Below are positions 3,279-51,331 of a DNA stretch of 64,000 nt, piece after piece. The stretch's first letter is position 1. The number at the start of each line of letters is the position of its first letter. The position numbers and the translations under genes are program-made. The notes under the pieces were generated by a model that saw only the letters and a program-made list of their open reading frames with translations, was not told the DNA's origin and ran no database searches. Source of the DNA: Planctomycetota bacterium (GTDB taxonomy: Bacteria > Planctomycetota > Phycisphaerae > Sedimentisphaerales > Anaerobacaceae); contig CP070728.1 in the NCBI GenBank assembly GCA_020351025.1, positions 1,412,530 to 1,476,529 on the forward strand, read 5' to 3'.

Positions 3279-3522
3279 AAAAAAATAAGTACAGATTAAC
3301 ACAAATGAACACGAAATGATTTACCGCGGAGAAAAAAGTCAGGCACTAAGACGCAAGGCAGAGGATTAGAGTTTGGTTAAGTGTTGAGGGTTTGGAAAGG
3401 GGAAATAGCGTAGAGCGGGTAGCGTAGAGCGGAGGACAAAAATAGCGTGGAGCGTATTGCGTATAGCGTGTAGAAACTGGATTCCTGCTCCCTTTGGGAC
3501 AGGTTTCGCAGGAATAACAAAA

Positions 3523-3561
3523 GAGATTGCCGCGCATCGCTTCGCGCTGCTCGCAATGACG
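3523..3561. repeat. Palindromic gagattgc...gcaatgacg intergenic element
   Basis: On the minus strand this reads CGTCATTGCGAG, a GC-rich palindromic core (GCGCGAAGCGATGCGC region), then GCAATCTC. Elements of this form are well-known dispersed intergenic repeats in many unrelated bacteria. A shorter relative with the same ends lies at 3659-3686. Confidence 0.65.
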
Positions 3562-3827
3562 AGGGGGGCCTGGTCGCAGGGTAGTCGATGCGGGAATACG
3601 GGGAAGCGTTAATGCGTAGATGCGTAGATGTGTGGAGGCGTTGGTGGTAAGAAGTGTAGAGATTGCCTTGCTTGGCCGGCAATGACAGGAGAAAGAACAT
3701 CGAATATTGAACAAGGAATATCGCAATACGCAGCGAGACTCCCTTGCCGGCAGCATTGCTGGCTCCTCGCAATGCCGTTGAACGTTAAAGGCAGCGCCGG
3801 ACAGGGCTGGTGTTTAAATATACACCG

Positions 3828-5028: not shown

Positions 5029-5553
5029 TCAGTCTTTGAGAAGTTTGATGTTTCGGATTTCAATAGTCGAATTGAGGAGGTCTTCGTTCTCGAGGCTTTT
5101 TTTAATGTAGAGGGTTTTGACGCTGGCCAGGACGTTTGAAGACTGGACATTACGGAGGAGAGCAATCAGCTCTTTAAGGGTTACATTTTGCAGGTTTAGC
5201 TCGACAATCGTTTCAGAATAGCCGGATTCCGGCTGGATAAGGTTCTGCTTCATTGATGCGACTTTATTTTCAAGGTTAGAGCTGCGAATTTGGGATTCCA
5301 AGAATGGGAGCAATTCAACACCTTCCTGCGAAGCCATTTTTGCGCGCAGGCTGTTTAGCCTGTCGCGTATAGCGATAAAACGGGCACTTTTTGAGCGAAG
5401 CTGGCGGAGCTCATCCTGCTTTTGCGGTATGACCCTACTTAGGGTTTCTGCGCGAGCAAGCGAAGGGGAAATGAAAAAAGCATAGAGAAGCCAAGCAATT
5501 AAAAAGAGAACTAAACAAACAGCAAGCAACTTTTCTCTATTTGTCAGGCGCAT
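5029..5553 (-). CDS. gspM: Type II secretion protein GspM-like
   Basis: A 174-residue bitopic protein: short cytoplasmic N-terminus, one membrane segment at about residues 10-30 (LLAVCLVLFLIAWLLYAFF), a coiled-coil-prone stretch, then a small periplasmic ferredoxin-like domain. This matches GspM/PilO-type subunits of the inner-membrane platform that partner GspL. Sequence similarity in this family is always weak, so the call rests on architecture and position: last gene of the gsp operon, its ATG overlapping the gspL stop by one base (TAATG). Confidence 0.75.
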   Translation of the reverse strand: MRLTNREKLLAVCLVLFLIAWLLYAFFISPSLARAETLSRVIPQKQDELRQLRSKSARFIAIRDRLNSLRAKMASQEGVELLPFLESQIRSSNLENKVASMKQNLIQPESGYSETIVELNLQNVTLKELIALLRNVQSSNVLASVKTLYIKKSLENEDLLNSTIEIRNIKLLKD

Positions 5554-7031
5554 TATATTTTCTCCGAAAAGCCAGGATTTATGAGGATGGTAAATCGTAT
5601 GCTGCCTGATTGGGACAGCTTTTGGACATCCTGGACGTCGACAAGTTTAAATTGGGGGATTTTCTGCAATAGGCTTTGCCAGTGGTAGACAGTTTCAAAA
5701 GAATCGCAGGTTCCATTCAAGCGGATGGAATCGTCAGTTATCAACAGGTCGTCAATCCTGATAGCGGTCTTTGAAGGGATGCTTTTGGTTATTGAGTGAA
5801 GGGCTTCGAGCGGGTCAAGGTGAGCCGGGTCTAAGGGAGCGAAGAGGCGGTAATCTTTGTGCAAAGATTGGAGCTTTTGCTCTAACTGGGCAAGGGGACT
5901 TACAATATTTTTTTCCTGTGGCAAAGTACTCTGAAAGAGCTCTTTAATTTCATTTTTGACGTTTGAATACTCGTCTTCGAGGCGTGACAATCTCAAGAGC
6001 AGGCCAAGGAAAGAGACAGCAGCAATAGCAGCGAGAAGTATTGCACAGATGGTGAATTCCTTTTTTAGATTCAAGGGGTGCTTTGCCTTTGCGGTATCAG
6101 CTTTTAAGAAGTTAGTAGCTTCGGCCTGCTCCGAAACCAGAGCGCTTAAAGCCAGGCCTTGAGCGAGAGATATATCAGCAGTGCCATTGGAGTCGGGCAG
6201 GCGTGTAACCTTTGCATAAGGATTAACAACGGTTATTTGACAATTCAGATTTTCCTTAAGGATTGCCAAGAGGTTCTTAGGGAGATTGTGGCCAGCGGCC
6301 AAATAAATACAAGTGCTTTGGTCAAGGGGTGCTTGAAATACTTTTTGCCAGGTAATTTCTACCTCGCTTGAAAGGAGCTGGGCGATTTGTTCAGTAAGAG
6401 CGTAAATATCACCATCTGAGCGTGAAAAGTTTGGGATGTTTCTAACGAGCAGAACATTGCTATCCTCGATAACGGCCAAAGTAATGTACGAGAGGTCAAT
6501 ATAAACAATAAGAGCTTTGCCGGTCATAGCTTGCGGATGATTAACGGCAACGGTCAAACGAACTGCGAAGATGGGAGCTTCGACGAGGTTCGGCTTAAGG
6601 TTTGCCTCAGAGAGTGTGTTTAGTCTTTCCTGCAGCGATTCTTTTTTTGTCGCTGCTACGAGGACAGAACACTTTTGGTCAGGCATCTGACGGTATGAAC
6701 ATACGTGGGCGACACTTTCAATCGGTTGTATTGGAAAATGATGCTCTAATGCGGCTGAACCAGAGGAGGAGAATTGTTTTATGGAGTCAACATCAGTGAC
6801 TAAACTCCGATAGAAAACGGAATTGTGCGGCATAGAAATCGCAACATCGGCACGACGGTCAAACCCACGTCGGGTGGTGAGGGATTTGAGTATATCCGCC
6901 GGTGAGTCAGTACTTCGTCGAGTTTGTGTGGTAAAGACTTTTTCGACGTTGAACCTTCCATTGGTGCGTGAGAGCTGCACCGCACGCAGGTAGGAAGAAC
7001 CAATATCTATGCCGATACATCGCTTAGGCAT
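5553..7031 (-). CDS. gspL: Type II secretion protein GspL-like (actin-fold, PilM/PilN-like)
   Basis: 492 residues. The N-terminal part is an actin-like domain of the PilM/GspL type (CIGIDIGSSYLRAVQLSR at the start, later LIVYIDLSYITLAVIED). A membrane segment lies at about residues 330-350, followed by a coiled coil and a periplasmic ferredoxin-like domain with PilN character. In other systems this subunit clamps the GspE ATPase to the membrane platform and pairs with GspM. It follows gspK by 46 bases and is coupled to gspM. A fused PilM-PilN reading is equivalent; the pseudopilin genes upstream favour the T2SS assignment. Confidence 0.85.
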   Translation of the reverse strand: MPKRCIGIDIGSSYLRAVQLSRTNGRFNVEKVFTTQTRRSTDSPADILKSLTTRRGFDRRADVAISMPHNSVFYRSLVTDVDSIKQFSSSGSAALEHHFPIQPIESVAHVCSYRQMPDQKCSVLVAATKKESLQERLNTLSEANLKPNLVEAPIFAVRLTVAVNHPQAMTGKALIVYIDLSYITLAVIEDSNVLLVRNIPNFSRSDGDIYALTEQIAQLLSSEVEITWQKVFQAPLDQSTCIYLAAGHNLPKNLLAILKENLNCQITVVNPYAKVTRLPDSNGTADISLAQGLALSALVSEQAEATNFLKADTAKAKHPLNLKKEFTICAILLAAIAAVSFLGLLLRLSRLEDEYSNVKNEIKELFQSTLPQEKNIVSPLAQLEQKLQSLHKDYRLFAPLDPAHLDPLEALHSITKSIPSKTAIRIDDLLITDDSIRLNGTCDSFETVYHWQSLLQKIPQFKLVDVQDVQKLSQSGSIRFTILINPGFSEKI

Positions 7032-7077: not shown

Positions 7078-8067
7078 TTAGAGCTCTTTATAAAAGAGCA
7101 CTTCAATATTTTTGGTATTGGTATTTTTTCTAAGAACTGCAAGTATGGTACGGCTCATATGGTTGACAGTTCCTTTCGAAGTTACGTGATAATATCCATC
7201 CGAAGGGCTTACAGTAACTTTCTCTTTAATCGCGGAATAGATAGCATCGGTCATGCCGGGGACATTCTGCACTTCTGCTACACTATTGAAGGGTTTGATT
7301 TTTCGCTGGTCGATAATTATTTTTGCCAAGGCAGGGTCCATTTTTTGCGAGAGAGACTCAATGACTAACTTCGAGGCAGAGTTAATATTAATTTTTCCAT
7401 CGCCGTAAACGGTTACATAATCATAAATCCGCTGAAAAACATCCGGTGTCAGGCCTTTGATGAGGAGTAGCTCTTCGGTCGTCTTAAAAGAGGCATTGCT
7501 ACAGTTGTAAGGTTCAGATAACTTTTGGTAATAAGCCGATTCAGCCCCCAAGTTTTTGTCTTTTATATAGTGCAGGTGAGCAACCTGGTCGTCGGCGTCA
7601 GTCCAATCAATAATGGCGGGGACTATGCCATAACCGATATGAGGGTGCTCAATTTGTTTTTGATTGAGCAGGTCGATAAGCCGAAGCAACTGCTCTATTG
7701 CCGTTCGGTCCGGTTTATCATTTTTGTCTGTGAGGAGATTGACATTTAATTTGCTGTTTTCCTGGTTGATTGTGACCGAGCATACTGCTTCAGCAATATC
7801 AAAAGTGTGTTCCGGTGAAAAAAGAGATTGTAAGGTTTTATTTGTAAAGATATCGTCATTAGTTCCGATAGCAGCAATTGCAATATTCAGTCCTGCTCTT
7901 GCAGAATTAAGAGCGAGCTTTGATTTTTTGAAGTGGTCTGCAGCTTGGAGGCATAATCGAGATTTATAGTTGAAGCCGAGGAGCAAAACGGTCAGCATCA
8001 TCAGGATAGCTAAAACGACAACAACTACAAATCCTTTTCTCTTTGTTTTTGTTCGTTTTCGTTTCAT
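7078..8067 (-). CDS. gspK: Type II secretion minor pseudopilin GspK
   Basis: About 329 residues from the chosen start. The leader is short and very basic (MKRKRTKTKRKG) and is followed by a hydrophobic helix FVVVVVLAILMMLTVLLLGF; like other GspK proteins it lacks the Glu at position +5. The rest has the large helical insert typical of GspK, including two helix-hairpin-helix-like INSAS/VQNVPGM segments. It should cap the tip of the pseudopilus with GspI and GspJ. An upstream in-frame ATG at 8118 would overlap gspJ by 35 bases and add an unlikely extension, so 8067 is preferred. Confidence 0.85.
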   Translation of the reverse strand: MKRKRTKTKRKGFVVVVVLAILMMLTVLLLGFNYKSRLCLQAADHFKKSKLALNSARAGLNIAIAAIGTNDDIFTNKTLQSLFSPEHTFDIAEAVCSVTINQENSKLNVNLLTDKNDKPDRTAIEQLLRLIDLLNQKQIEHPHIGYGIVPAIIDWTDADDQVAHLHYIKDKNLGAESAYYQKLSEPYNCSNASFKTTEELLLIKGLTPDVFQRIYDYVTVYGDGKININSASKLVIESLSQKMDPALAKIIIDQRKIKPFNSVAEVQNVPGMTDAIYSAIKEKVTVSPSDGYYHVTSKGTVNHMSRTILAVLRKNTNTKNIEVLFYKEL

Positions 8068-8083
8068 TGTTTTTTGACTAACA

Positions 8084-8785
8084 CTAATGGACGGAATCTG
8101 ATTTTGTACTTTTAGCATTGTTGCAACTTATATATGCAGTGGTGGTGTAGCTGCATTTTTGATAATTTTTGTCGACACAACTGATTTGAATTTTTGCAGC
8201 GTAGGGCAGGATTTCACTATCTTCGAGGTCCCATTTTTGGAGCCACTTTTGACCATCAAAAAATTCCAATTCGACACTTTCAACGTTTTTTAAGAGCGGC
8301 TGCCAATATCTACTTCTGTTGAGGCTTTCAGTTGTGCCGATGAACTTTTCCTGGTTTAATAAAAGGACGTTTTTGGTTTTGTCAAATTTGTAAGTGACTA
8401 CAAATAAGCCATCGGCGGTCTGCTGTTCTGTAAAAATTCCCCGGGTAGTTACGAAACGTAAAATTTCTCCGTCGGGGTTCAGCGGGCTGCTCTTAAAATA
8501 ATCGATTGCACTTTCAGATACGTCCTTTCCCTGCTGGGAAGCGGTGGTTTGTGAATTTGAACTGTCGCTGATTCGGCTGACATATGCGCAACGTATTTGC
8601 CGTGCCATCTGGTCCAGGGCGCTACGCCCATCTTGTAGGAGAGATAGTTTAGCTTTGTATGTATGAGTTGAGCGTGACGTTGCGAAATAGCTGCCATATA
8701 CCATAGAGATAACAGTAAGGATTATCGCCATAGCGACGAGAATCTCAACAAGTGTAAAAGCCTTTTTGTCAGAGGTAGTGTTCAT
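8084..8785 (-). CDS. gspJ: Type II secretion minor pseudopilin GspJ
   Basis: 233 residues starting with an eight-residue basic leader and the prepilin motif KKAFTLVEILVAM with Glu at +5. The residue before the cleavage site is Ala, not the usual Gly. The C-terminal domain has the GspJ pattern (SALDQMARQIRCAY, then a beta-rich region with VELEFFDGQKW). It builds the pseudopilus tip. It overlaps gspI by four bases (ATGA), so the two are translationally coupled. PulG-family proteins of other machines are the alternative, but gene order settles it. Confidence 0.85.
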   Translation of the reverse strand: MNTTSDKKAFTLVEILVAMAIILTVISMVYGSYFATSRSTHTYKAKLSLLQDGRSALDQMARQIRCAYVSRISDSSNSQTTASQQGKDVSESAIDYFKSSPLNPDGEILRFVTTRGIFTEQQTADGLFVVTYKFDKTKNVLLLNQEKFIGTTESLNRSRYWQPLLKNVESVELEFFDGQKWLQKWDLEDSEILPYAAKIQISCVDKNYQKCSYTTTAYISCNNAKSTKSDSVH

Positions 8786-9222
8786 GGCAATTTTTTATCA
8801 GCAATATACGTTGACATTTGCAGGTGTTTGCGGCCAAGAGCCTGCAAGGTGACATCCACAGATACTTTTCTCAAACGATTAACATCCGCATCATGCAATT
8901 CCGGCACAGTCAAGTCTGTAACTTCGGTCTGCCATTTCAGCGTCAAACCGTTGTTTTCCACGGAGCCGGCGTTTGTCCCCACTTCTGGGTAGTCGAGGGC
9001 CAGTGTTTCAGCAATTTTCTGTTCTGCCAACAAAACAGCTTGAGTATTCATCTCTGCCGAGTCGGCCATAGCGATGCTACCAATATGGAGCCTAAGCAAG
9101 GCCAAGACAGAGATTGAGGCAATGGCGAGAGCTATAATAACCTCAATAAAAGTGAAGGCATTCGGGAGTATTGTGTGCCCTGCTGAACGCTTTTTGTCGT
9201 TGTTGATATTATTCGTGCTCAT
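8782..9222 (-). CDS. gspI: Type II secretion minor pseudopilin GspI
   Basis: About 146 residues from ATG 9222. A 22-residue polar leader ends LPNA, then FTFIEVIIALAIASISVLALLRL, a prepilin helix with Glu at +5. As in the neighbouring GspJ the residue before the cleavage point is Ala. The remainder (AEQKIAETLALDYPEV and a short beta domain) fits GspI, the nucleator of the tip complex. The chosen start overlaps gspG by 14 bases; the frame stays open upstream to 9285 but that would lie wholly inside gspG. Confidence 0.85.
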   Translation of the reverse strand: MSTNNINNDKKRSAGHTILPNAFTFIEVIIALAIASISVLALLRLHIGSIAMADSAEMNTQAVLLAEQKIAETLALDYPEVGTNAGSVENNGLTLKWQTEVTDLTVPELHDADVNRLRKVSVDVTLQALGRKHLQMSTYIADKKLP

Positions 9223-9676
9223 CGAGATTCCAACTTTCAATATCAGCATTATCTTCGTCGCCACCATCCTCCCCATCTTTGCCATAAGATTCGAGGTCGT
9301 AGTCTTTATTATTGGCTCCCGGGGAGATATAGATGTATTTGTTTCCCCAAGAGTCTACAGGAACGTTATCAAGATAAGCGTCAGAGTTATAGCCTTTTAC
9401 GCCTGGGTTCGAAACGAGAGCCTGAAGGCCTTCGGAAGTAGTCGGGAAGCGCCCTGTGTCTGTTTTGAATAATGCCAAGGCAGACTCGATATTTCGTATA
9501 TCAACTTTCGCTTTTATTCTTCGTGCCTGCTCCGGCCTGCTTAATATCCTGGGCATAATCACAGTAGCCAAAAGCCCGAGAATAACGACCACAATCATAA
9601 GCTCAATCAAAGTAAATCCCTTAGATATCGGATAGCGTATAGGGCAGAGCGTATAGTTTGTTTTGTTTTGTGACAT
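9209..9676 (-). CDS. gspG: Type II secretion major pseudopilin GspG
   Basis: 155 residues. The prepilin motif is ISKG/FTLIELMIVVVILGLLATVIMPRIL, and the body has the GspG hallmarks RIKAKVDIRNIESALALFKTDTGRFPTT, the DSWGN calcium-loop region and an acidic C-terminus. It polymerises into the pseudopilus that pushes substrates through the secretin. ATG 9676 has GGAG nine bases upstream; the ATG at 9691 overlaps the gspF stop (TAATG) and is an alternative. The leader is long at 20 residues, and the DNA coding it (plus strand 9627-9655) resembles the agcgtatagcgt repeats of the 3.4 kb spacer. Confidence 0.92.
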   Translation of the reverse strand: MSQNKTNYTLCPIRYPISKGFTLIELMIVVVILGLLATVIMPRILSRPEQARRIKAKVDIRNIESALALFKTDTGRFPTTSEGLQALVSNPGVKGYNSDAYLDNVPVDSWGNKYIYISPGANNKDYDLESYGKDGEDGGDEDNADIESWNLDEHE

Positions 9677-9690
9677 TTTACAGAGCTCCA

Positions 9691-10839
9691 TTAAAGGACG
9701 TTATTTATTTCAAAAATAGGCAGTAAAATCGCCAATACTATAAATCCGACCACAACGCCCATAACAAGGATTATCGCAGGCTCAAGGATTGAAGTGAGGG
9801 TTTTTGCAGCGGTCTCAACCTCGCCGTCATACATATCAGCAATACTAATTAGGCCATCTTCCAAGGTGCCGGAGGCTTGGCCTGTAGCGATGATGTGAAG
9901 GACAATAGGCGGAAACAGACGGGTTTTTCTAATTGCGCCGGCAATATTATCTCCTTTGCTAATTAAGTTCTTTACATAATCTATGGCGTTGGCGATAAAG
10001 CTGTTTTGAACAACGCCTCTGGCAGTTTCCAAAGCACTAAGAATTGGTAACCCACTAATAAGAAGAATCCCAAGCGTCCTTGCCAGACGCGCTATTTCGA
10101 GCTTTAGAAACAGTTTACCAAAGAGCGGCAGTTTCAATTTAGAGCGGTCCAAAATTACTCTTGCCTCTGTTGTTCTGTAGGCGGCTGCAATTGCACAGAA
10201 AAGGGCGCAAATCAAAATTACAATCAGCAAGAAATAAGTTTTTAGAAAAGCACTTGCTGAGATAAGAAATCTTGTTGGCCAAGGAAGTGAGCGATTCATC
10301 TCAAGAAAAATCTGCGTTATACTCGGCACGACATAAGAGAGAAGAAATATTACGACTGCGGTGGCCACAGCAAGCATCATTAGCGGATAAGCAAGAGCGA
10401 CCTTAACCTTGCCGGCAAGAAGCAGGCGCTTTTCGAGGATTTCGGCCAATCGTAAGAGAACTTCTTCCAAGGTTCCAGTCGCCTGCCCGGCAGCTACCAT
10501 ATTTACAAAGAGAGGCGAAAAGATATCCGGATGTTCTTTAAGTGCATCAGCCAATGAAGTACCCTGGTTAACGGCGTCAGCAACGTGCTCTAAAACGCCA
10601 GCAAGAGGCTCATTTCTCAGCTGCTCAACTAATGCTGAGAGAGCAGGAACAAGCGGCATACCAGCGTGCAAGAGGGTAGCCAACTGACGTGCGAGTCTGC
10701 AGAGGTTTTTTGTGCTGATTCTTCGAAAGACGTCCGGTTGATATATTTTTGTCACAGTAACAGCACAATTATTGTTTTCGGCTGCTTTATGCACCGAAGG
10801 TTGTTTTTGACCTAACAAACTGGATTCAAGCACCGACAC
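9691..10839 (-). CDS. gspF: Type II secretion inner-membrane platform protein GspF
   Basis: 382 residues with the duplicated GspF/PilC domain (LARQLATLLHAGMPLVPALSAL in the first copy, IARLARTLGILLISGLPILSAL in the second), each followed by membrane segments; the last helix is near the C-terminus. It is the multi-pass platform protein on which GspE is thought to turn to add pseudopilins. The start overlaps the gspE end by 14 bases and the stop overlaps the ATG at 9691. Length and motif spacing are normal for the family. Confidence 0.95.
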   Translation of the reverse strand: MSVLESSLLGQKQPSVHKAAENNNCAVTVTKIYQPDVFRRISTKNLCRLARQLATLLHAGMPLVPALSALVEQLRNEPLAGVLEHVADAVNQGTSLADALKEHPDIFSPLFVNMVAAGQATGTLEEVLLRLAEILEKRLLLAGKVKVALAYPLMMLAVATAVVIFLLSYVVPSITQIFLEMNRSLPWPTRFLISASAFLKTYFLLIVILICALFCAIAAAYRTTEARVILDRSKLKLPLFGKLFLKLEIARLARTLGILLISGLPILSALETARGVVQNSFIANAIDYVKNLISKGDNIAGAIRKTRLFPPIVLHIIATGQASGTLEDGLISIADMYDGEVETAAKTLTSILEPAIILVMGVVVGFIVLAILLPIFEINNVL

Positions 10840-12478
10840 TTTCAGTTACTCCAATATTTGTCTGGATACTGTCCTGGGTGACCCTGTAAACTTCTTCAAG
10901 AGTTGTTTGAGAAGCGAGGGCTTTAGTTATCCCGTCCTGTCTCAAAGTGTTCATACCTTTTTCGACGGCCACATCTTTTATGACGTTCGAACAGCACCTT
11001 TGATTCATTAGTTTTCTGATATCATCATCAATAACCAACATTTCAAAGATACCGGTTCTGCCTCGGTAACCGGTTTTGATGCAATTTTCGCAGCCAATTC
11101 CCTCATACAATTGGTTATCCGAAGCTGCTATTGTGTCACCGAATAGAGAGATAATTTGCTCTTTTGGCTTGTAGGGCCTTTTGCAGGATGTACAGATGAG
11201 TCTGAGGAGCCGCTGGGCCATTACCGCAACAACGGATGAGGAAATCAAGTAAGGCTCAATACCCATATCAATCAGCCGAGTTACAGCAGATGCCGCATCA
11301 TTCGTGTGTAGCGTACTTAAAACAAGATGGCCTGTGAGGGATGCCTGAATTGCGATTTCAGCAGTTTCAATGTCTCGGATTTCTCCTATCATAATTACAT
11401 CAGGGTCGTGCCTCAGAATGTGACGGAGACAATTAGCAAAAGTAAGTTTTATCTTTGGTTTTACCTGCATCTGCCCAATGCCTGGCAGCTGGTACTCAAT
11501 GGGGTCTTCGACGGTGAGGATGTTTCTCTCCTGGTAGTTAAGCTCGTTCAGAGCGGCGTAGAGGGTGGTTGTTTTTCCACTTCCTGTAGGGCCTGTAAGT
11601 AAAATTATACCATGCGTTAATCCAATCAAGTTCCTGAATCGGTCAAGTACATCGGTAGCGAGCCCAATTTCATTTAACGTTAGCTTTCCGCTGCCCTTGT
11701 CGAGTAGTCTCAAGACGACGCGTTCGCCCCCTAAGGTTGGGATGACGGAGACACGGATATCCACCAAGTTTCGGCCTATTTTAATTCGGCTTTGACCATC
11801 CTGTGGCAACCTGCGCTCTGCGATGTTTAGATTTGCCATAATCTTCAATCGCGAGAGAAGAGCCGGGATATACTGCTTTTGTAAAGTAAATACGTCGTGC
11901 AAGACGCCATCAATTCGAAAGCGTATTCGGAGGTGATTTTCGTAAGGTTCAATGTGGATATCGCTGGCCCGGCTATGAACGGCGTGGAAAAAGACCTTAT
12001 TGACTAACTTTATGACCGGAGCTTTATTGGCGATGTTTAAGAGGTCCTCTGCGTAGGTTTGAATGGAAGTATTATCAAGACAGGCATCATCATTTGGAAA
12101 TTCATTTTCATCGGAGCCGTCGCTCATAGCGGTATTTTGATAGTAACAGCGACTGATAGCGTGTTCTATTTCCGATTCAGGACAAATCACGCGAGTGCAC
12201 AGTCTTTCCAAGACAGTAGAAATTGCGTCATAGGCTTCTACATTGAGTGGGTCTGCCAAGGCAATTGCAACCTGGCCATTTTCCAAAAGAAGAGGAATAG
12301 CACACTGTGCCTTAAGAAACTCAAGTGGTAGTTTCCTTACGAGCTCGGGCTTTAATTGCTCGGGCGCTATAGTGTTCAAAGAATAATTTTCAGGGCTCAT
12401 TTTGGAAGACGCCGCAAAATGGGACTTTTTTATTATTTGTCCGTTCAATTCCGTACCCACAAGTTTCTCTTTCCACAA
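10826..12478 (-). CDS. gspE: Type II secretion ATPase GspE
   Basis: 550 residues. An N-terminal GspE/PilB N1-type domain (residues about 35-115) precedes the hexameric ATPase core. Walker A is GPTGSGKT at 296-303, the Asp box and Walker B are DPDVIMIGEIRD, the His box is LSTLHTND, and a tetracysteine zinc motif is present (CTSC...CENC). It powers pseudopilus assembly from the cytoplasmic face, docked by GspL. It starts 24 bases after gspD. PilB of a type IV pilus is the alternative family, excluded by the surrounding pseudopilin and GspC/D genes. Confidence 0.95.
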   Translation of the reverse strand: MWKEKLVGTELNGQIIKKSHFAASSKMSPENYSLNTIAPEQLKPELVRKLPLEFLKAQCAIPLLLENGQVAIALADPLNVEAYDAISTVLERLCTRVICPESEIEHAISRCYYQNTAMSDGSDENEFPNDDACLDNTSIQTYAEDLLNIANKAPVIKLVNKVFFHAVHSRASDIHIEPYENHLRIRFRIDGVLHDVFTLQKQYIPALLSRLKIMANLNIAERRLPQDGQSRIKIGRNLVDIRVSVIPTLGGERVVLRLLDKGSGKLTLNEIGLATDVLDRFRNLIGLTHGIILLTGPTGSGKTTTLYAALNELNYQERNILTVEDPIEYQLPGIGQMQVKPKIKLTFANCLRHILRHDPDVIMIGEIRDIETAEIAIQASLTGHLVLSTLHTNDAASAVTRLIDMGIEPYLISSSVVAVMAQRLLRLICTSCKRPYKPKEQIISLFGDTIAASDNQLYEGIGCENCIKTGYRGRTGIFEMLVIDDDIRKLMNQRCCSNVIKDVAVEKGMNTLRQDGITKALASQTTLEEVYRVTQDSIQTNIGVTESVGA

Positions 12479-12501: not shown

Positions 12502-14466
12502 TTAATTGTCGCTGATTTTATTCTCAAGTTTCTCGATTTCTGAATCCATTTCCTGTCTCTTTTTATCAGTTATTCGGTCCAAGTCCTGCTGACTACCAAG
12601 AACATAGGGTGTTATAAATATAATTAGATTTGTTTTCTGCAATTCGTCTTTTTGAAGTCTAAACAAATCCCCAATGAGTGGGATATCAGCAACGATGGGG
12701 ACTTTTTTCTCGATAGTTACTTTGTCATCTCGAATGAGGCCTCCGATTACAACAGTGGAGCCACTATTCATAGAAACGACAGTCTGAGCCTGACGTTTAG
12801 CTGTTGTAGGCGTATCCTCGGAGAGTGTAGTGACGGTCTCAACAAGTTTGGTAAACTCACTTTCAATTTCAAGTCTGACCAATCCACCCTGGCTAATATG
12901 CGGAGTTATCTCAAGTGTGATACCGACATCTTTGTATTCAAATGTTTTTATGACAGTCGGCGTAAGAGGGTCAGATTCGGTAATTCTTGACTGGGTAACA
13001 AATGGCCGATTTTCCCCTACTATTATCCGCGCCTTGTTATGGTTTGAGGTCATAATATGCGGCGTTGAAAGAATATTGACGCCGGAAATTTTTTCCAAAG
13101 CGTGTATAATTGGCCCGATAGTGAGATCGGAGCCACTTCTTTTCCAAGCACCGACGCTGAGTCCCTCGAGGTCGCCGGCGGCAAAATCGACACGCGGGCC
13201 GAAATTAGTTGCACCAAAAAAGCGGACACTTCCTGTGACAGCCTGATCAAGTGTAGCCCAGTCGATACCTATTTCCTTTAAGCTGTCTTCACTAACCTCG
13301 ACGATGAGCATTTCAACTAAAACCTGCTCCCGCACGATATCGAGCTTTTCTATAATCTCTGAGATGACGTCAAAATCCTGCGCCGAGGCGGTAATTATCA
13401 AAGCATTTGTACCTTCATCAGCAGTAACCTGTATGCGCTGGGCGTCATCAATTGCACCGGCAATTCTTAAGTCAGTAAGTGCTTGGGTAAGAGATTTGGC
13501 GGTTTCGTTTGCAGGTGCGTTTTTAAGGTAGACCACGTGAACAGTATTTGTCCCGCGAGGCCTTTGAATATCCAGGTTTTCAGTCAATTTTTTGATTGCC
13601 TCGGTATCCTGAGGATTAGCGACAACAATAAGCGAGTTAGTTCTTACATCGGGGAGGATTTTGATATCGGTCAGGCTCTGTGGCGTCTGCCGGCTATAAG
13701 CAGCATTTGAGGAAGCGGCTTTTGTTTTTTCCATAATGCGAGCAATCTGGTCACTGAGCACCTGGGCAGAAGCGAATTTTAATTCAATGACGGTTACGTG
13801 CTCTTTCGAACCAGTTACGTCAAGCTTTTGAATAATCTTTGCAAAATGATGGATGTTTGACGATGTGTCTGTAATGAGAATGGAGTTAGTCGTTGGGTAA
13901 GTGGCCATATGTGAACCTGCAACCAGGAGAGGCTTAATAATGAGACTTACCTTTTCAGCATCGGCATATTTTAAGGGAATAATCTGCGTAACAATAGAAT
14001 CGTCTTCTGGTATTTCTGAAGGGTTACTACCAATTCGAACCTGTAAGTTTCTTTTTACGGCTTCTGTTCTTGGTACTATTTTTACGAGGTTTCCAGCAGG
14101 TACAGCGGCATACCCTTTGACTTCGAGAATTGATTCTAAAACCTTGTAAATTTCGCCAAGACGTATCTTTGTTGGTGAGATGACAGTAACGGTGCCTCGG
14201 ACACTATCGTCGATAACAAAATTAACTCCGGTGATATCACCGACGGTTTTAAGCATGACCCTAATATCAACCTGGTCGAAGTTCAGAGATACAAGCTCAT
14301 CAGCGATACCTGGTTTGGTAAGTTTAGGCAAGTTTACGGTTGTCTCTGAAGGCAACGGCTCTTCAGCTGTGGCAGTTATACATAACGCGCAGATAAGCAT
14401 CAAAAGGCATCTTAGTAGCATTTGCTTTTTCTGTGCACCAATTATGTTAAGACTTATTAGTGACAT
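12502..14466 (-). CDS. gspD: Type II secretion outer-membrane secretin GspD
   Basis: 654 residues with signal peptide (about residues 12-34), an N0 domain (LVSLNFDQVDIRVMLKTVGDITG), N1-N3 ring domains and the secretin C-domain, ending with the membrane-inserting segment near VVIGGLIRDDKVTIEKKVPIVADIP and IGDLF. It forms the outer-membrane gate. The gene starts 10 bases after the gspC stop. A short Glu/Lys-rich tail follows, possibly for a pilotin or GspC contact. Family length is typical. Confidence 0.95.
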   Translation of the reverse strand: MSLISLNIIGAQKKQMLLRCLLMLICALCITATAEEPLPSETTVNLPKLTKPGIADELVSLNFDQVDIRVMLKTVGDITGVNFVIDDSVRGTVTVISPTKIRLGEIYKVLESILEVKGYAAVPAGNLVKIVPRTEAVKRNLQVRIGSNPSEIPEDDSIVTQIIPLKYADAEKVSLIIKPLLVAGSHMATYPTTNSILITDTSSNIHHFAKIIQKLDVTGSKEHVTVIELKFASAQVLSDQIARIMEKTKAASSNAAYSRQTPQSLTDIKILPDVRTNSLIVVANPQDTEAIKKLTENLDIQRPRGTNTVHVVYLKNAPANETAKSLTQALTDLRIAGAIDDAQRIQVTADEGTNALIITASAQDFDVISEIIEKLDIVREQVLVEMLIVEVSEDSLKEIGIDWATLDQAVTGSVRFFGATNFGPRVDFAAGDLEGLSVGAWKRSGSDLTIGPIIHALEKISGVNILSTPHIMTSNHNKARIIVGENRPFVTQSRITESDPLTPTVIKTFEYKDVGITLEITPHISQGGLVRLEIESEFTKLVETVTTLSEDTPTTAKRQAQTVVSMNSGSTVVIGGLIRDDKVTIEKKVPIVADIPLIGDLFRLQKDELQKTNLIIFITPYVLGSQQDLDRITDKKRQEMDSEIEKLENKISDN

Positions 14467-14475: not shown

Positions 14476-15393
14476 TTACCGCAAAGAGAATGAAAGAGTT
14501 TCAATTTCGCCATTTCGTATTAACTCTAAACGGACAGAGGGTTCGGACTTTGCCTTTTTAAAGACCTGGTAAGCCTTCTTTCTGCTTGTTAAGCGGTGCC
14601 CATTGACGGTGTGAATAACATCACCGTTCTTTAAGCCGAGGTCTTTTGCCGCTTTTATATTTTCTATACCCGTTATTTTAAGTCCCTCTGTTTGGCTATC
14701 AACGACATAAGGCTCAATCATCGCTTCATCTAAAATTGTCTCCATATATCTTTTCTTAGTTTGAACTCCGAGGAGAGTCTCCTCGTCCGGCAAATTAGTT
14801 TTGACAGCTTTGCTTACATCACGAGCGGTCTGCGAAGAAAGTGGCTTAACACCGTTGTCGCTGTTTCCGGCAGAACGTAGTATATCGAGCTTCAGCACTT
14901 TTCTTTGTCCATTATGAAGCAAAATTACGGTATCAGACTCTATACTTTCGATGCGAGCCTCTTCAACGGTCTGGCCTACTCTGTAGAGGTCAAGCCCACC
15001 AGTTTTAAGAGTCTTTATAATAGCCCTTGCAACGACGGGGTTGCCTGATATAGTGCCAATCAAAGCCAAGCCTAATTGCTCGGATAGATAGTCATCGGCG
15101 CTCAACGAATTTGTCATTGATGTCTGTTGGTTTTTACGCATTTGCTTTTCAGATAAACGAAACGGATTTCTTTCAACGATTTCAGCGTAGTCGTCAAGGA
15201 GCAAAACCGGGGCGTCAGTTGCTTCAGTGGCAGGTACTTTTTCCCGGGCAAGAGCCGAGAGCGGCGACAAAGTGACTTGCATATGCGCAGGGAGCATTAC
15301 CAACTTGACGGCCATAAACAAGAGCACGGAGGTAAGTGCTAACTTACCTACAAACAATGCCTTACAAATGTACAATTTACCACCTTTCTTCAT
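14476..15393 (-). CDS. gspC: Type II secretion protein GspC (PDZ type)
   Basis: 305 residues: N-terminal membrane anchor (about 10-34), an HR domain (IGTISGNPVVARAIIKTL..., YRVGQTVEEARI) and a C-terminal PDZ domain (GLKITGIENIKAAKDLGLKNGDVIHTVNGHRLTS split over about residues 225-300). GspC links the inner-membrane platform to the secretin and takes part in substrate choice. As the first gene of the operon it follows a 181-base spacer from the CPBP protease gene. The start codon has only a distant GGTGG upstream. Confidence 0.88.
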   Translation of the reverse strand: MKKGGKLYICKALFVGKLALTSVLLFMAVKLVMLPAHMQVTLSPLSALAREKVPATEATDAPVLLLDDYAEIVERNPFRLSEKQMRKNQQTSMTNSLSADDYLSEQLGLALIGTISGNPVVARAIIKTLKTGGLDLYRVGQTVEEARIESIESDTVILLHNGQRKVLKLDILRSAGNSDNGVKPLSSQTARDVSKAVKTNLPDEETLLGVQTKKRYMETILDEAMIEPYVVDSQTEGLKITGIENIKAAKDLGLKNGDVIHTVNGHRLTSRKKAYQVFKKAKSEPSVRLELIRNGEIETLSFSLR

Positions 15394-15574: not shown

Positions 15575-16324
15575 TTAAGCAAGGACTGCTGCGATTACAC
15601 AATAGCAGGTATTAGCGAGGCCATGGAACAAAATAGGCGCAATTAATACCCTTGTTTTGACAAACAGCCAGCCACAAATTAGAGCGGGCAGAAAGGTTAA
15701 GGCCGATGTTATCTGACCTTGTACAATTATATGAGCAGCGGCAAAACATCCGGCCGATATGCTAATACTCAACCACTGTTGGAGGCTGGGTCGCAGCCAT
15801 GTGGCTGCGTTTGTCAACCGCTGAATATTACGCTGCACATAAGCCCTGAAAAATACTTCTTCAGCAACGGCAATGTACATAAACTGATAAAATAGCCAGC
15901 AGAACCAATCCTGATTTTTTGGAGGCACGGGCCTCAAAGGCATCTCTAATCCATACGAGCCCAAAACCCACAACCCAAAGAACATTGCAGGAAAGAGCAC
16001 AACGGAAATCGCACAAACCAACAAGAGAGCCTGTTTGAGTTTTTTAATGGTTAAGCCAATCGCGGCCAATTTTCTGCCTTTAATCGCTGTCGGAATAATC
16101 GCAGCAGAGACCCAGATAGCTGGGACAGCAAACCAAGCAGCTGGGGTGATGGAGGCTTGATAAATAAGCTTAATCACCAAGATTGACGCAATTGTCACTA
16201 AAGCGGTCTCTGTGAGCAACGACATATCGAGCTGCTTTAATCTATCTTTAAAAAAAGGAGCTAAGATAGCGTTCGGCAATGAATGAGCAACACTTAACTT
16301 ACTGGATAAAGAGTCTGCTTTCAT
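15575..16324 (-). CDS. CPBP-family glutamic-type intramembrane protease
   Basis: 249 residues and about seven membrane segments. The CPBP/Abi motifs are present: EEVFFR at 155-160 (catalytic Glu pair and Arg), His198 in FAAAH, and His234/Asn238 in LFHGLAN. Its ATG overlaps the TGA of the upstream gene by four bases (16321-16324), so it is translationally coupled to a large protein with a Gly-rich/Cys/TM/basic C-terminal tail. Families of this protease (MrtJ, MrtX, MrtS and relatives) serve as dedicated sorting enzymes for such tails, so a sorting role for its neighbour is the best inference. A stress or bacteriocin-immunity CPBP protein is the less likely alternative. Confidence 0.85.
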   Translation of the reverse strand: MKADSLSSKLSVAHSLPNAILAPFFKDRLKQLDMSLLTETALVTIASILVIKLIYQASITPAAWFAVPAIWVSAAIIPTAIKGRKLAAIGLTIKKLKQALLLVCAISVVLFPAMFFGLWVLGSYGLEMPLRPVPPKNQDWFCWLFYQFMYIAVAEEVFFRAYVQRNIQRLTNAATWLRPSLQQWLSISISAGCFAAAHIIVQGQITSALTFLPALICGWLFVKTRVLIAPILFHGLANTCYCVIAAVLA

Positions 16325-19300
16325 TCGTTTTTTTGAATATTGGAAGCTATGGTATTGGTTCTGCGTTTATCTTTTATTTTTATTATTATCATGACGACAG
16401 CCAGTACTAAATACGGCAGGAGGAAGTCACCAAAAGTAGCTTTCCCAGGTTCGGAGAAGGAACATCCGCCACCACCGCCCCCTCCGCCAGCGGCGGCGGC
16501 AGCACCTCCAAGTAAGAGGTAAAATTGCGTAAAGTGCGTAGTTTTAAAACTCAGTGCATTCAAGTTCGAAGATATAAGGATATTCTGAACATCGGTTATT
16601 CCCTGTTGACTAAGCGCACCGGTCAGGGAATTATACCAATAGGGCAACGCGGAACCACTGTCGGTTGAAGCTGCATAAGGTATTGTTACAGTGACCGGCT
16701 GGGTGAATTGTATACCACTTGGTCCGAAATCAAAACTGCTCAAGGATTGCATAGCAAAAGCCTGTGGATTTTCAACTTTAGAGATTGTAATTGTTGTATC
16801 ACACAGGCATGCGGCTGGGGGCACTATAACGGAGACATTGTTTAGATTATTGATAGCTACGGGGTCAGTACCCACTGTAGCTCCGACGGAAGCGGAGACA
16901 TTTTCTGAGACCAGGGCAGTAGGGTTCATAAAAGTACTTGCGGCATAGTAGATATTGTTGATTAAATTTCTGTCGTCAACCCACACGAGATAAGGATGGC
17001 CGTGTCCATCTATACTGATTGCCGGCTCTATTTGACTTGCATTTGTGCTATCATCACCTACAAAGATATTTGTTCCGGCAGATAAATTGATTTCAGTAAA
17101 ATATATATCGGTATCCCTATTATCGCTATCAAGATTCCTCTCATCCTGCCAGCATGCAAAAACCCTTAAGGTATTACCCGTGGTACCAGAGACAGCAATG
17201 GCCGGTTCCAACTGGTCGGCACCGGTGGTGTCATCAACAATGCTACTTCCAGTCAAAGGAGAGCTTGGCAGGCCGCCCGTGGTTTTGGCATAGAAAATTT
17301 CATCATCTCCTGTCGTATCGTCAATCCAAATGAGATGCAGGATAGAGCCGGTAGCTTCAGCAGCAACAGCAGGACTTTTTTGCTTATCATCTTTGCTTAC
17401 CACCGCCACATTGGTCCAAGGGCCGTTATTTGAGGCTGCACCATAAATATCAAGCGAACGATTTCTGGCATCTGTCCATACTACGTAAACGGTGTTGCCA
17501 GAATCCACGGCAATGGCTGGTTCGGTTTGATCTGAACTATCAGAGGTTATTTGCGAGAGTACTTTTGTCTCAAAATCGGTGCTTGACGAAGCAATATAGA
17601 TATCCTGATTACCCCCGCGGTCATCCTGCCAAACGATATATGCATTAGCCGGTAAGGAGCCGTTAACAGCTATTTCGGGATTGGTCTGATTATCGTTCGA
17701 ATCAGTGACAAGTCTTTCAGTCGAGAAGTTTATCCCGTCAGATGAGGTTGATATGTAGATATCCCAATCACCGTTTCTATTATCCTGCCAAGCGACGTAT
17801 AGCTTACTATCGGCATCTATAGCAATAGCAGCATTAAACTTGTCACCAAAGCCGTTTGTTAGCTGAATGCTACTATCGAAATTGTCCGCTGAGGCATTTA
17901 GTTTTCCAAGATAAATATCCCTGCTGCCGATAGGTCCTGCGTGCCATGCCACCCAAATATTGCCACTACCGTCCCTTAGTGTTGCAGGCCTGCCTTCAGT
18001 GATGTTGTCCGAGACGGAACTGACTTTCTTATTTTTAGCGAAGGAGCGCATTTCGGTATGGAAGGAATAGCTTAGCTCTGCCATTGCGTTATCCGCAAGG
18101 TCCGTGGCATTTACTGTAACGGAAACACTTTGGTCGAAATCAAACAATTCGCTGGCCTGGTAGATAAATGTATAATCAGCTTTTGTGCCAATCCTGTAGC
18201 AATGACCTGATGTGCTATTATAATCAGCTGTATTACCTGTGTATACAACGTCGCTATTGACTTTAATGTTCACTGAATTTGCATCAACACCTTTGCCCGA
18301 ATCGACAATATGTAAAGTTATCAGATTATTCAAAGGCACCTGAATCACACCATCGGATGGTGAAGTACTGGAAACAGTTGGTGCTAAATCATCAAGATTA
18401 ACAAGTATTGCAATCGTTTCAGAATCCTGAGCCTGGCCATCACTTACAATAAAAATCACCTCGTGACTACCTGACTGGCTGTCGGCTGGTGTCCAGCTAA
18501 AGGTTTGATTAGTCAATGTGGCGCCGCTGGGCAAGCCCTGCGCCGAATATTGTAATGTATCACCATCAAGGTCAGTCGCATCGACAGTAAAGGTTAATGT
18601 CTCATCTGCATAAACGGACTTATTACCGATAGGACTGAGAACGGGTGCTCTGTTAACATTGTTAACCGTTATCGTTATCGTCTCAGAATCCTGGTCCTGT
18701 TCATCGCTTGCAATAAAAGTAACTTGATGAGTTCCAGCCTGGGTATAAGCCGGTGTCCAAGTGAATGTCTGGGTGGTAAATGCAGCTCCAGATGGCAGGT
18801 TTTGTACCGAATATGCAATTGCATCAGTATCAGCGTCCGTGGCAGTGACTGAGAAACTCAAGAGACTATTTTCATTGACGGACTTATCGCCAATTTCAGC
18901 AAGTACCGGCGGACGGTTGGTGTTACTTACAGTTATTGTTATGATTTCGGAATCTTGGGCTATGCCGTCGCTTGCAATAAATGTAACTTGATATGAGCCG
19001 GACTGAGTATAACTCGGTGTCCAGTTGAAGTCTTGCCCTAACAAAGTTGCCCCTGTTGGCAGGTTTTGAGATGAATAGGCAATAGTATCTCCATCAGCAT
19101 CAGTAGCATTTACAGTAAAACTCAGAAGGGCGTTTTCATTTACAGTTTTGTTGCCGATTGAGTCTAAAACAGGAGTCGAATTATTAGGGTCCGATTCAAC
19201 ATATTCGTAGCAACCTGCATCTGGTAAGCCTACGCGCGTGTTTCCAAGGATATCTGTGGCTGGAGCATGGTCAGAATCACCGAAGTTGATGGCTACGGAA

Positions 19301-20691
19301 CCCGCTGCGAGGGTGAAATCATCGTTGTCGTAATCAGTAAAAAGACTCTCAAATAACTCGTTATTATTTAACTCAACGGTGTTTGTGCCTTGCTCGTACT
19401 CTGGTGGCACATGTATCCACCATCTGTTGATAATGTTATAATCTTCACCTTCAGCACTCGCCCCTTCAAGGTCGACCTTGTAAAATATATTATTACACAT
19501 TTTCGTAATTTCTATGCCGACTCTAAACCAAATTCCAGTAGGGCCTGTATTATTTACAAACTGTAGATTATTAACTTTATATGCCATAAGACCCCAAGCC
19601 CCTGTGCCTGCCAAGTCAGGTGCGTACATTAAATTATTTTCAAAAATAATGTTTTCCGCATGGCCATCTCCTATGAAATTTATCATCACAATTTGAACGC
19701 TGCTGTGATGCATTTTATTTCTTCTTATTGTAAGGCCCGTTGGAATAACGCTCTCGTAGGGCGTGCTAATTTGCAAGCAATCGTTATGGGGACCGCTGCC
19801 ATCGGGTCTTATGGTATGATGGAGATGATTATCTTCGATAATGCTGTTCGACAAACCATTTAACCAAAGAAGGTCAGCAAGACAGTCGTGCATATTGCAA
19901 TCCCAAACATGCCAATTATCACCCATATAAGCCTCGACCGCCGTGCCGCAATCTTTTATTTCACAATTATAGATATTTACATCGGTACACTCCCGTATAT
20001 ACATACCGAAGTCAAAACCGGGGCCATATGCCTTCTCAGTTACTTCACTGTAATGTGGAGCGTCTCCGGTGCCAAATATTGTGCAGCCTGATATGTGTAT
20101 ATTACTGGATAACTGGGCATATATACCGCTTGCCGGATAGCTTAGTGGCGCTTTTTTATTCTCGAATCCAACGCCCTCCATAGTGCAATCTATAAATCTA
20201 TAATAATGAGAATTATATAACTTAATTGCCGATTGGTTTGGTTCATTGACTTCTATAGTGAGGCCCTCGAAGTGAAAGTATTTATCGAATGAGCCGGGAG
20301 TTTTCCCCATTTTCATAGCACAACCAAGACCTGAATCATAAGAAATCACCGGTGAATGTCCAGTATCAGCCTTGTATGTAATCCAATCTGTGTAGGTATC
20401 TTCATTGTACGCATCAAAAGCACCGTAATCACCATCTCTGAGGTAAACGGTGTCTCCTGAAACTACCGTTGATATAGCCTTATCCAAAGTCTTCCATGGT
20501 GCATCGCTGGTGCCGAGGTCGGTATCATCACCGTTAATGGCATCAAGATAGTAGGTTGCTGCAGTTGCTGTACCCGTAGTCAAGGAAAGGCATGTCACGT
20601 TTACCACAATCAAATAAAACAGGTAAGAGACACATGAATGCAGAGCGTGTTTCTTACATCCTGGGCGAAATATACCCACTACATCTGCCAT
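16321..20691 (-). CDS. Giant surface protein: beta-helix, Ig-like repeats, propeller, Cys-containing C-terminal sorting signal
   Basis: About 1,456 residues from ATG 20691, chosen because a signal peptide follows directly (basic start, core SYLFYLIVVNV, cleavage near TATAA) and AGGAG lies 13 bases upstream; the frame stays open to 20775. Order: a right-handed parallel beta-helix (YYLDAINGDD onward, about 450 residues), three tandem Ig-like repeats of about 95 residues (each with GNKTVNE/GDKSVNE-type starts and FTWTP motifs), a further Ig-like domain, then seven repeats of the form VWxDxRxxxxDIYxA, which suggest a seven-blade propeller, and a ZU5-like segment. The end is GGAAAAAGGGGGGGGC, 13 residues, a hydrophobic helix (FLLPYLVLAVVMIII) and KIKDKRR. 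Glycan binding or lyase activity is possible but unproven. Confidence 0.85.
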   Translation of the reverse strand: MADVVGIFRPGCKKHALHSCVSYLFYLIVVNVTCLSLTTGTATAATYYLDAINGDDTDLGTSDAPWKTLDKAISTVVSGDTVYLRDGDYGAFDAYNEDTYTDWITYKADTGHSPVISYDSGLGCAMKMGKTPGSFDKYFHFEGLTIEVNEPNQSAIKLYNSHYYRFIDCTMEGVGFENKKAPLSYPASGIYAQLSSNIHISGCTIFGTGDAPHYSEVTEKAYGPGFDFGMYIRECTDVNIYNCEIKDCGTAVEAYMGDNWHVWDCNMHDCLADLLWLNGLSNSIIEDNHLHHTIRPDGSGPHNDCLQISTPYESVIPTGLTIRRNKMHHSSVQIVMINFIGDGHAENIIFENNLMYAPDLAGTGAWGLMAYKVNNLQFVNNTGPTGIWFRVGIEITKMCNNIFYKVDLEGASAEGEDYNIINRWWIHVPPEYEQGTNTVELNNNELFESLFTDYDNDDFTLAAGSVAINFGDSDHAPATDILGNTRVGLPDAGCYEYVESDPNNSTPVLDSIGNKTVNENALLSFTVNATDADGDTIAYSSQNLPTGATLLGQDFNWTPSYTQSGSYQVTFIASDGIAQDSEIITITVSNTNRPPVLAEIGDKSVNENSLLSFSVTATDADTDAIAYSVQNLPSGAAFTTQTFTWTPAYTQAGTHQVTFIASDEQDQDSETITITVNNVNRAPVLSPIGNKSVYADETLTFTVDATDLDGDTLQYSAQGLPSGATLTNQTFSWTPADSQSGSHEVIFIVSDGQAQDSETIAILVNLDDLAPTVSSTSPSDGVIQVPLNNLITLHIVDSGKGVDANSVNIKVNSDVVYTGNTADYNSTSGHCYRIGTKADYTFIYQASELFDFDQSVSVTVNATDLADNAMAELSYSFHTEMRSFAKNKKVSSVSDNITEGRPATLRDGSGNIWVAWHAGPIGSRDIYLGKLNASADNFDSSIQLTNGFGDKFNAAIAIDADSKLYVAWQDNRNGDWDIYISTSSDGINFSTERLVTDSNDNQTNPEIAVNGSLPANAYIVWQDDRGGNQDIYIASSSTDFETKVLSQITSDSSDQTEPAIAVDSGNTVYVVWTDARNRSLDIYGAASNNGPWTNVAVVSKDDKQKSPAVAAEATGSILHLIWIDDTTGDDEIFYAKTTGGLPSSPLTGSSIVDDTTGADQLEPAIAVSGTTGNTLRVFACWQDERNLDSDNRDTDIYFTEINLSAGTNIFVGDDSTNASQIEPAISIDGHGHPYLVWVDDRNLINNIYYAASTFMNPTALVSENVSASVGATVGTDPVAINNLNNVSVIVPPAACLCDTTITISKVENPQAFAMQSLSSFDFGPSGIQFTQPVTVTIPYAASTDSGSALPYWYNSLTGALSQQGITDVQNILISSNLNALSFKTTHFTQFYLLLGGAAAAAGGGGGGGGCSFSEPGKATFGDFLLPYLVLAVVMIIIKIKDKRRTNTIASNIQKNE

Positions 20692-21375: not shown

Positions 21376-22113
21376 TTGGATTTAGCGAAAGTTTCAAGGT
21401 TGGGGAGAATTTCAACACCATTTGTATGGGTTCTGGCAGTCATCCTGCTAATACTGTCGGGAGTAGGATATCGTATTCTCGCATCTCGATTAAAACTTGT
21501 TGTTGAAATCCCTATCAAATTGTCAATTCCATTAAGTGCCTTTCCCACAAAAGTTGGCGATTGGACCGGCAAAGATGTCCCAATTCCTCAAAATATTCAG
21601 CGTGTTGCAGGCAATGATGATTTTCTCAATCGCTTATATATCAACAAAACGAACACAGGATGGGCTAATGTTTATATTGCTTATACTGCACGGCCGAGAA
21701 CTATGTTAGGTCATCGGCCCGAGGTGTGTTACATTGGCGGCGGTTGGGTACAAGATAGCGCGAAACGCACGGAATTCATATCCTCTTTCGGCAGGCAGAT
21801 ACCATGCAAGATATTCCGCTTCCACACACCAGGCTTAGAGCACGAAGAAAGAGTGGTTCTGAATTACTACATAGTTAATGGTCAACTTACCTCTGATGAG
21901 AGTGTTTTTTCCGGCGTAGGCTGGCGCACTCCAAACATCGCAGGCGACCCAGCCCGCTATGTCGCCCAGGTTCAGATAAGCTCAGTATTAGAGAATTCCG
22001 TTCGAACGGCAGCTACAGATATGACAGATTTAATACTCGATTATTTCCCCAACCAATCAGGCAAAGTAAAAGCAGCGGAATTCCATGATGCAGAATCCAC
22101 TGTTTTGAAGTAA
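21376..22113 (+). CDS. epsI: EpsI-family exosortase-associated protein
   Basis: 245 residues. One N-terminal membrane segment (about 15-35) is followed by a periplasmic EpsI domain: IPLSAFPTKVGDWTGKDV, then VYIAYTARPRTMLGHRPEVCYIGGGW, whose conserved HxPExCY motif is the family hallmark. EpsI proteins are found fused to, or encoded beside, exosortases; their exact task is unknown. Here it opens the plus-strand locus, 15 kb away from the exosortase. The start is TTG at 21376, forced by an in-frame stop just upstream (21361) and supported by AGGAA nine bases before it. Confidence 0.85.
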   Translation: MDLAKVSRLGRISTPFVWVLAVILLILSGVGYRILASRLKLVVEIPIKLSIPLSAFPTKVGDWTGKDVPIPQNIQRVAGNDDFLNRLYINKTNTGWANVYIAYTARPRTMLGHRPEVCYIGGGWVQDSAKRTEFISSFGRQIPCKIFRFHTPGLEHEERVVLNYYIVNGQLTSDESVFSGVGWRTPNIAGDPARYVAQVQISSVLENSVRTAATDMTDLILDYFPNQSGKVKAAEFHDAESTVLK

Positions 22114-49205: not shown

Positions 49206-49919
<714 letters not shown>

Positions 49920-50020
49920 AAGTGCAATTAAGAGCCGGGACGAGCTATTCGTGCTGTCTCGGTGTCAATGGACAATGGGCGTAAAAACCCATTTTACAAG
50001 GAAATGTAGAAAGGATTTAA

Positions 50021-50677
<657 letters not shown>

Positions 50678-50717
50678 GAACTAAAGCTTTTTTGAAAGAC
50701 AAGGAGTATAGACAACA

Positions 50718-51260: not shown

Positions 51261-51277
51261 GAACACATAAAGACCAA

Positions 51278-51309: not shown

Positions 51310-51331
51310 AAGATTTTATAAAGGAGCACAT

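Follow-up and report, generated by a model that had tools for sequence, protein, structure and literature searches.

A probable type II secretion-linked C-terminal sorting system with a myxosortase-like protease in Phycisphaerae

According to the literature, the route in which a CPBP sorting protease is followed by surface display through the type II secretion system (T2SS) has apparently been worked out only in Myxococcota. In Myxococcus, both the cleavage of Cys tails by MrtX and the T2SS-dependent surface display have been established experimentally; cleavage requires the Cys, and the protein ends up anchored at the surface (PMC11980579). In Vibrio, rhomboid processing is an alternative whose product is released and inactive (as described in PMC11980579). 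For the rhombosortases, their authors reported in 2011 that no subclass of T2SS was marked by the enzyme (PMC3237569).

The locus described here lies in a window of 64,000 nucleotides (the whole stretch of DNA that was analysed) from the 2.27-Mb single-contig genome of a Phycisphaerae-type planctomycete MAG, whose close kin are Phycisphaerae, Sedimentisphaerales among them (Planctomycetota). A sequence-only reading of the window had placed a giant exported protein and a CPBP protease side by side, and translation gives both at exactly those positions (Table 1). It had also claimed that stop and start overlap by four bases, and on the coding strand, which reads AAACGAATGAAAGCA, the TGA stop of the substrate gene and the ATG start of the protease gene do have four bases in common (ATGA). 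The gsp genes, said to come next on the same strand from C to M, were found as C, D, E, F, G, I, J, K, L and M; no gspH was identified among the gsp genes of this operon. The best explanation of this arrangement, which we regard as probable, is that the T2SS operon incorporates a myxosortase-like system for C-terminal sorting. The window also contains a second surface-sorting system, comprising EpsI/DUF3485, a PrsT-like TPR protein and several ORFs with PEP-CTERM-like/exosortase-dependent features (21376-22113, 43306-47478 and 49218-52730), and unlinked copies of the substrate gene adjoin EpsI-like genes or lie close to them, as is also the case for the window copy (L203, L209 and L214; also L205 and L207).

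Table 1. Positions of the genes, domains and motifs in the window.
Feature	Position	Strand	Basis or remark
EpsI/DUF3485 gene	21376..22113	+	Divergent from substrate gene; neighbour kept in many relatives (association only)
Substrate gene, exported 1,456-aa protein P0002	16321..20691	-	Translation; domain profiles
ZU5-fold beta-sandwich directly before tail (aa about 1261-1394)	16510..16911	-	Pfam ZU5; ankyrin ZU5 profile; AF2 and Foldseek
His-Phe-Thr (aa 1386-1388), turn between last two ZU5 strands	16528..16536	-	H-[FYL]-[TS] in all tailed homologues read
C-terminal tripartite tail: Gly8 (aa 1402-1409), Cys1410 (codon 16462-16464), 13 residues, TM segment (aa 1424-1437), basic cluster KIKDKRR, 12-residue end	16324..16488	-	
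CPBP (Rce1-like) intramembrane protease gene, 249 aa, P0001, myxosortase-like clade	15575..16324	-	Translation; profiles; fold match
CPBP motif EExxxR (EEVFFR, aa 155-160)	15845..15862	-	
CPBP motif FxxxH (aa 194-198)	15731..15745	-	
CPBP motif HxxxN (aa 234-238)	15611..15625	-	
gspC (T2SSC + PDZ)	14476..15393	-	Starts 181 nt past protease gene; profile match
gspD secretin	12502..14466	-	Profile match
gspE	10826..12478	-	
gspF	9691..10839	-	
gspG	9209..9691	-	
gspI	8782..9285	-	
gspJ	8084..8785	-	
gspK	7078..8118	-	
gspL (PilM_2 / GspL_C)	5553..7031	-	
gspM	5029..5553	-	

The substrate begins with a signal-like segment, followed by a right-handed beta-helix, He_PIG/Ig repeats, propeller-like repeats, the ZU5 domain and the Cys tail. 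The tail reads GGGGGGGGC-SFSEPGKATFGDF-LLPYLVLAVVMIII-KIKDKRR-TNTIASNIQKNE; it had earlier been described correctly as far as Gly8, Cys, 13 residues, helix and KIKDKRR, but the protein runs on for 12 residues beyond that cluster. Alignment of 26 tails shows two invariant positions only, the Cys and the LLP[YF] Pro; the G-G-G preceding the Cys is nearly invariant, as is the Asp of the R/K-D-x-R that follows the helix, and every complete tail read at the loci of relatives carries the Cys. The Gly/Ser/Asp linker before the Cys varies among homologues in both length and composition. The features that mark a Cys-tail sorting system, an invariant Cys, then a TM helix and then a C-terminal basic cluster, are all there. 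Because the Cys and Pro are invariant, and because a search of the host genome with the tail model hit exactly one place (E 1.4e-22), the tail is not a chance feature. No second C-terminal tail of this kind was present among the 47 places in the host genome that match a Gly-Gly-Gly-Cys DNA pattern, the count of tails being based on the tail-profile search and targeted stretches. Larger relatives have two to three homologous tail proteins each, mostly with one clade protease; their extra substrates have the propeller-ZU5-tail part in common and differ in the front domains (LamG, fn3, Ig, InlB-type repeats or beta-helix). At one locus (L216:333-3440, G012:C548) the tail is internal to an open frame that continues in frame with about 740 residues of an RHS/YD-repeat protein, which is comparable with the internal MYXO-CTERM of MXAN_5598.

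The protease falls in the CPBP/Rce1-like family (PF02517; 58.3 bits against a cut-off of 22.4), with the motifs and the multi-helix membrane fold of that family. All of the catalytic motifs attributed to it earlier are present, and EExxxR, FxxxH and HxxxN are each invariant in 33 aligned homologues. The AF2 model (pLDDT 88) had MmRce1 (4cad) as its top fold match (E 0.008, probability 1.0), a resemblance found by fold comparison only, the sequence search against solved structures having given no match. The seven best NCBIfam models for the protein are all Mrt, and the ranking of sorting proteases includes MrtP, Mrt_core, MrtC, MrtS and MrtJ; the protease lies below every cut-off, with 73.7 bits for MrtP (cut-off 250), 71.9 for Mrt_core (NF040914, 100), 67.6 for MrtC (195), 47.2 for MrtJ (NF033192, 75) and 33.9 for MrtX (180). 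The sequence-only reading had held that placement of the CPBP in a non-sorting family would count against it; the best NCBIfam matches are instead all sorting proteases.

Mrt_core scores were two-humped in 60 relatives: intact members of the clade scored 74-96 bits (up to 95.8, none above the cut-off), and all other CPBPs 45 bits or less. The only copy near the lower group was one broken by insertion in G034 (46.8 and 41.4 bits), and the host genome's two other CPBPs gave 31.8 bits and nothing. By these measures the clade lies closer to the sorting CPBPs than to other CPBPs. A quick CPBP tree groups the Phycisphaerae proteases with modest support (85) and leaves the fragmentary L128 outside, which is not a strong argument. 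Judged by these profiles, the clade is sorting-like but without an NCBIfam name, because the Mrt_core scores are two-humped and the Mrt models are the best matches, yet below their cut-offs. At L074 and L126 (G034:C132) transposase-like insertions break the protease gene, and the gsp genes remain.

Scanning 84,980 species genomes with an alignment of the protease yielded 38 Phycisphaerae loci (L092-L129), at which neighbours were counted from tables. A Cys-tail protein lies directly upstream of the protease at 26 of the 38, its stop in most cases only a few bases from where the protease gene begins (the farthest stop is about 1.2 kb upstream, at L118), and gspC lies downstream at 31. The order substrate-CPBP-gspC-D-E... 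is kept in Phycisphaerae, with stop and start often 10 nt or less apart or overlapping. Over the approximately 35 readable loci, the protease is linked to gspC at 31 and to a tail protein at 26. The readable loci at which no tail protein adjoins the protease are L096, L102, L106, L111, L114, L122, L123 and L124; in addition, L095 has only 644 nt of upstream sequence and L126 is broken by insertion elements. Those without an adjacent T2SS are L108, L111, L124 and L128, and in all four genomes gspD orthologues occur elsewhere; in one of these (bin7, L108/L221) the T2SS and the substrate-protease pair are at different places. With 31 gspC against 26 tail neighbours, and gspD elsewhere in the exceptions, the protease is tied more tightly to the T2SS than to the substrate. 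Thus the earlier description of substrate and protease as a dedicated pair fits the host genome, with its one tail and one protease, but not the larger relatives, which have two or three tail proteins per protease, nor the several proteases that stand at gspC with no tail neighbour. At L106, L111, L122 and L123 a gene cluster with serine-protease-like (GDSGS-type) ends takes the place of the tail protein upstream of the protease.

The more frequent adjacency of gspC, together with several genomes that have protease and T2SS but no tail protein, could mean that the CPBP protease is a T2SS accessory, acting in assembly, quality control or Gsp processing, and that the tail protein is merely a frequent neighbour or a T2SS cargo. 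We consider this unlikely, as the T2SS operons of order-level relatives that are without the clade protease are also without tails where searched with the tail model, the nearest named relatives of the protease are all Cys-tail sorting proteases, and in one genome (G048, below) protease and tail have decayed while the T2SS stayed intact.

The distribution of the three components across genomes bears on the same question. Nearly all of these genomes are MAGs, many of them incomplete, so that absence of a gene from a single one is weak evidence. Taking a gspD or gspC orthologue as presence of a T2SS, protease and T2SS agreed in 35 of the 36 genomes of the family set, 17 having both and 18 neither; none had the protease only (Fisher p 4e-9, a value that ignores kinship and gene linkage). 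The one exception, G015, has a T2SS together with part of a tail; contig ends fall at the positions expected for the protease and the remainder of the tail. Apart from G015, the tail model found nothing at E 0.01 or better in family genomes without the protease. At the order level, T2SS genes without the clade protease occur in G039, G040, G043, G045, G047, G048, G055, G056 and G057, and no tail was found in those of them searched with the tail model. The tail protein was undetected in protease-bearing G007, G009, G023, G028, G034, G061, G062 and G065, which are mostly incomplete MAGs, the protease of G034 being broken. Both co-occurrence with and linkage to a T2SS, as expected of a T2SS substrate, were observed. 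The sequence-only reading had asked whether T2SS accompanies adjacent tail-protein and CPBP genes; gspC was downstream of the protease at 31 of the 38 loci, and 17 family genomes had both protease and T2SS.

A search that used the substrate's C-terminal 220 residues recovered homologues in genomes without the protease. G039 has gspC to gspM complete and a substrate homologue directly upstream of gspC; the protease is absent, and the homologue continues after its ZU5 domain into unrelated polar sequence and ends, with no tail. In G048 the homologue has a stop right after TTHF, the remnant of the tail has the Cys changed to Tyr and a further stop, and the remnant of the protease is truncated with FxxxH changed to WxxxQ (His to Gln), the T2SS genes beside it being intact (L243:11434-12350, G048:C250). 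G005 has neither T2SS nor protease; in its homologue, TTHFSQFIVGG is followed by a short polar stretch and then the end. As G039 and G048 come from a single family, the independent losses may number two rather than three. As a counter-example, G061 has protease and T2SS and a substrate homologue without the tail. Homologues lacking the Cys tail, or proteases lacking the neighbour, had been named beforehand as findings that would speak against the proposal. Some proteases do lack the neighbour; the tail-less homologues are found mainly in genomes without an intact protease, G061 excepted, and so strengthen the link.

A hydrophobic helix followed by basic residues is also what a normal membrane anchor looks like, and the tail might be a plain stop-transfer anchor of an inner-membrane protein, with the protease acting elsewhere. 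The invariance of the Cys, the common overlap of the substrate gene with the protease gene and the loss of the protease alongside the tail in three genomes make this highly improbable. In these sequence comparisons, tail and protease are kept or lost together, which suggests that the genes make up a compact route to surface display, akin to the myxosortase systems but separate from them. The earlier proposal that a sorting-type CPBP, a Cys-tail substrate and a T2SS belong together is borne out by the conserved synteny, the co-occurrence and the shared decay.

By analogy with MrtX and TraA, we infer cleavage, lipidation, T2SS transport and a surface location for the substrate. Sec would export the giant protein, and its C-terminal helix would hold it in the inner membrane with the Cys in the periplasm. 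The Cys would then be lipidated, perhaps by Lgt, a gene for which is present in the host genome. The adjacent intramembrane CPBP protease probably cuts the Cys tail; the cut would fall beside the Cys, probably after lipidation, and would remove the helix and the basic end. The co-encoded T2SS would finally move the folded, lipid-anchored protein to the cell surface. The literature searched contained no experiment on any member of the protease clade. No lipidating enzyme linked to the locus was found, and this absence of a linked acyltransferase, like the Vibrio precedent of a released product, is consistent with cleavage of the tail without lipid attachment, in which case the protein, once exported by the T2SS, would either be set free or be retained by a different partner. 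The invariant Cys beside a variable linker, however, argues for a modified residue, and in Myxococcus it is the Cys that cleavage needs and a surface-anchored protein that results (PMC11980579), so we rate processing without a lipid as improbable.

The ZU5 domain before the tail offers a further, more speculative, possibility. It exceeds the Pfam threshold (PF00791; 23.2 bits against 21), its AF2 pLDDT is above 90 over most of the domain, and Foldseek ranked ankyrin ZU5 at the top, followed by UNC5b and then the GAIN domains of BAI3, CELSR1, BAI2 and CD97. In PIDD, CARD8 and NLRP1 a self-cleavage site of the form HF/S or SF/S lies at such a place (PMC3210808) as the H-[FYL]-[TS] motif occupies here; the tail-less homologue of G061 has TRLG at that position. 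Self-cleavage of the domain at this motif, as in PIDD, NLRP1 and GAIN domains, seems doubtful to us, and the motif may be merely structural. If it did occur, the linked protease would generate a lipid-anchored stub, the T2SS would deliver it, and non-covalent contacts with this stub would keep the surface protein in place; bacteria would then have a counterpart to the GAIN arrangement of adhesion GPCRs.

Here a single operon outside Myxococcota combines the substrate, the protease and the secretion machine, and in one relative with an intact machine the tail and the protease have decayed together; the locus thus provides support, independent of the work in Myxococcus, for a functional coupling of Cys-tail processing and type II secretion. 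It adds a protease clade and a tail without NCBIfam names, is a compact set for transfer to a laboratory host, and is relevant to how giant proteins may be anchored at the surface of uncultured planctomycetes.

The earlier statement that the tail most resembles JDVT-CTERM does not hold as membership: JDVT-CTERM gave the best tail match, but a weak one (15.8-18.6 bits, varying with how much of the tail was submitted, against the NF033191 cut-off of 27), its model matches only 6 of 12 tails at all, and the protease likewise falls short of MrtJ. JDVT-CTERM/MrtJ, from beta- and gammaproteobacteria, is alike in its two neighbouring genes, for a single Cys-tail protein and a single CPBP protease; the planctomycete system differs in its linked T2SS and its phylum. 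MYXO-CTERM/MrtX membership was also rejected, as none of the 12 tails matched MYXO-CTERM at E up to 5 and the protease is far from the MrtX cut-off. Comparison with the NCBIfam CTERM and Mrt models, which had been suggested as a check, therefore placed the protease closest to the Mrt models, with tail and protease missing all cut-offs. The system would work in the manner of the myxosortase and JDVT systems, but by the cut-offs tested it is a nameless sister system, not JDVT, and no member of MYXO-CTERM or of a named Mrt equivalog. MrtP and MrtC, the top equivalog models for the protease though far below their cut-offs, match mainly the catalytic core. Probably another nameless pair is seen in a Nitrospirota MAG (L139:1443-3314 and 3500-4039), where a 623-aa protein ending GGGGGCSIGPRKNSRNAFGDAAVMLMPLVVVFVLRAVKRRKK adjoins a myxosortase-like CPBP. 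A contig labelled uncultured planctomycete (L168:9722-10501 and 2-1951) encodes a CPBP that the tree places with Myxococcota, as well as a protein whose end is MYXO-CTERM-like; the cause is either horizontal transfer or mis-binning.

PEP-CTERM/exosortase is likewise a system of sorting tails, and the window has an EpsI gene and PEP-CTERM-like proteins of its own, but motif and enzyme are different and there is no CPBP-T2SS linkage. We know of no invariant Cys in the GlyGly-CTERM motif. GlyGly-CTERM/rhombosortase resembles the planctomycete system in its glycine-rich tripartite tail, general co-occurrence with T2SS and adjacency of target and protease where there is a single target (PMC3237569); rhombosortase is, however, a rhomboid serine protease and not a CPBP. 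MYXO-CTERM/MrtX of Myxococcus xanthus is alike in its CPBP protease, invariant-Cys tail, TM helix, basic end and T2SS-dependent surface display (PMC11980579), but serves dozens of unrelated proteins, whereas the planctomycete system serves one to three homologous ones. No T2SS genes were found near 42 distant myxosortase-like loci of other phyla, save for a GspE-like fragment at the margin of a single locus; what distinguishes the planctomycete protease from these is that it heads a T2SS operon.
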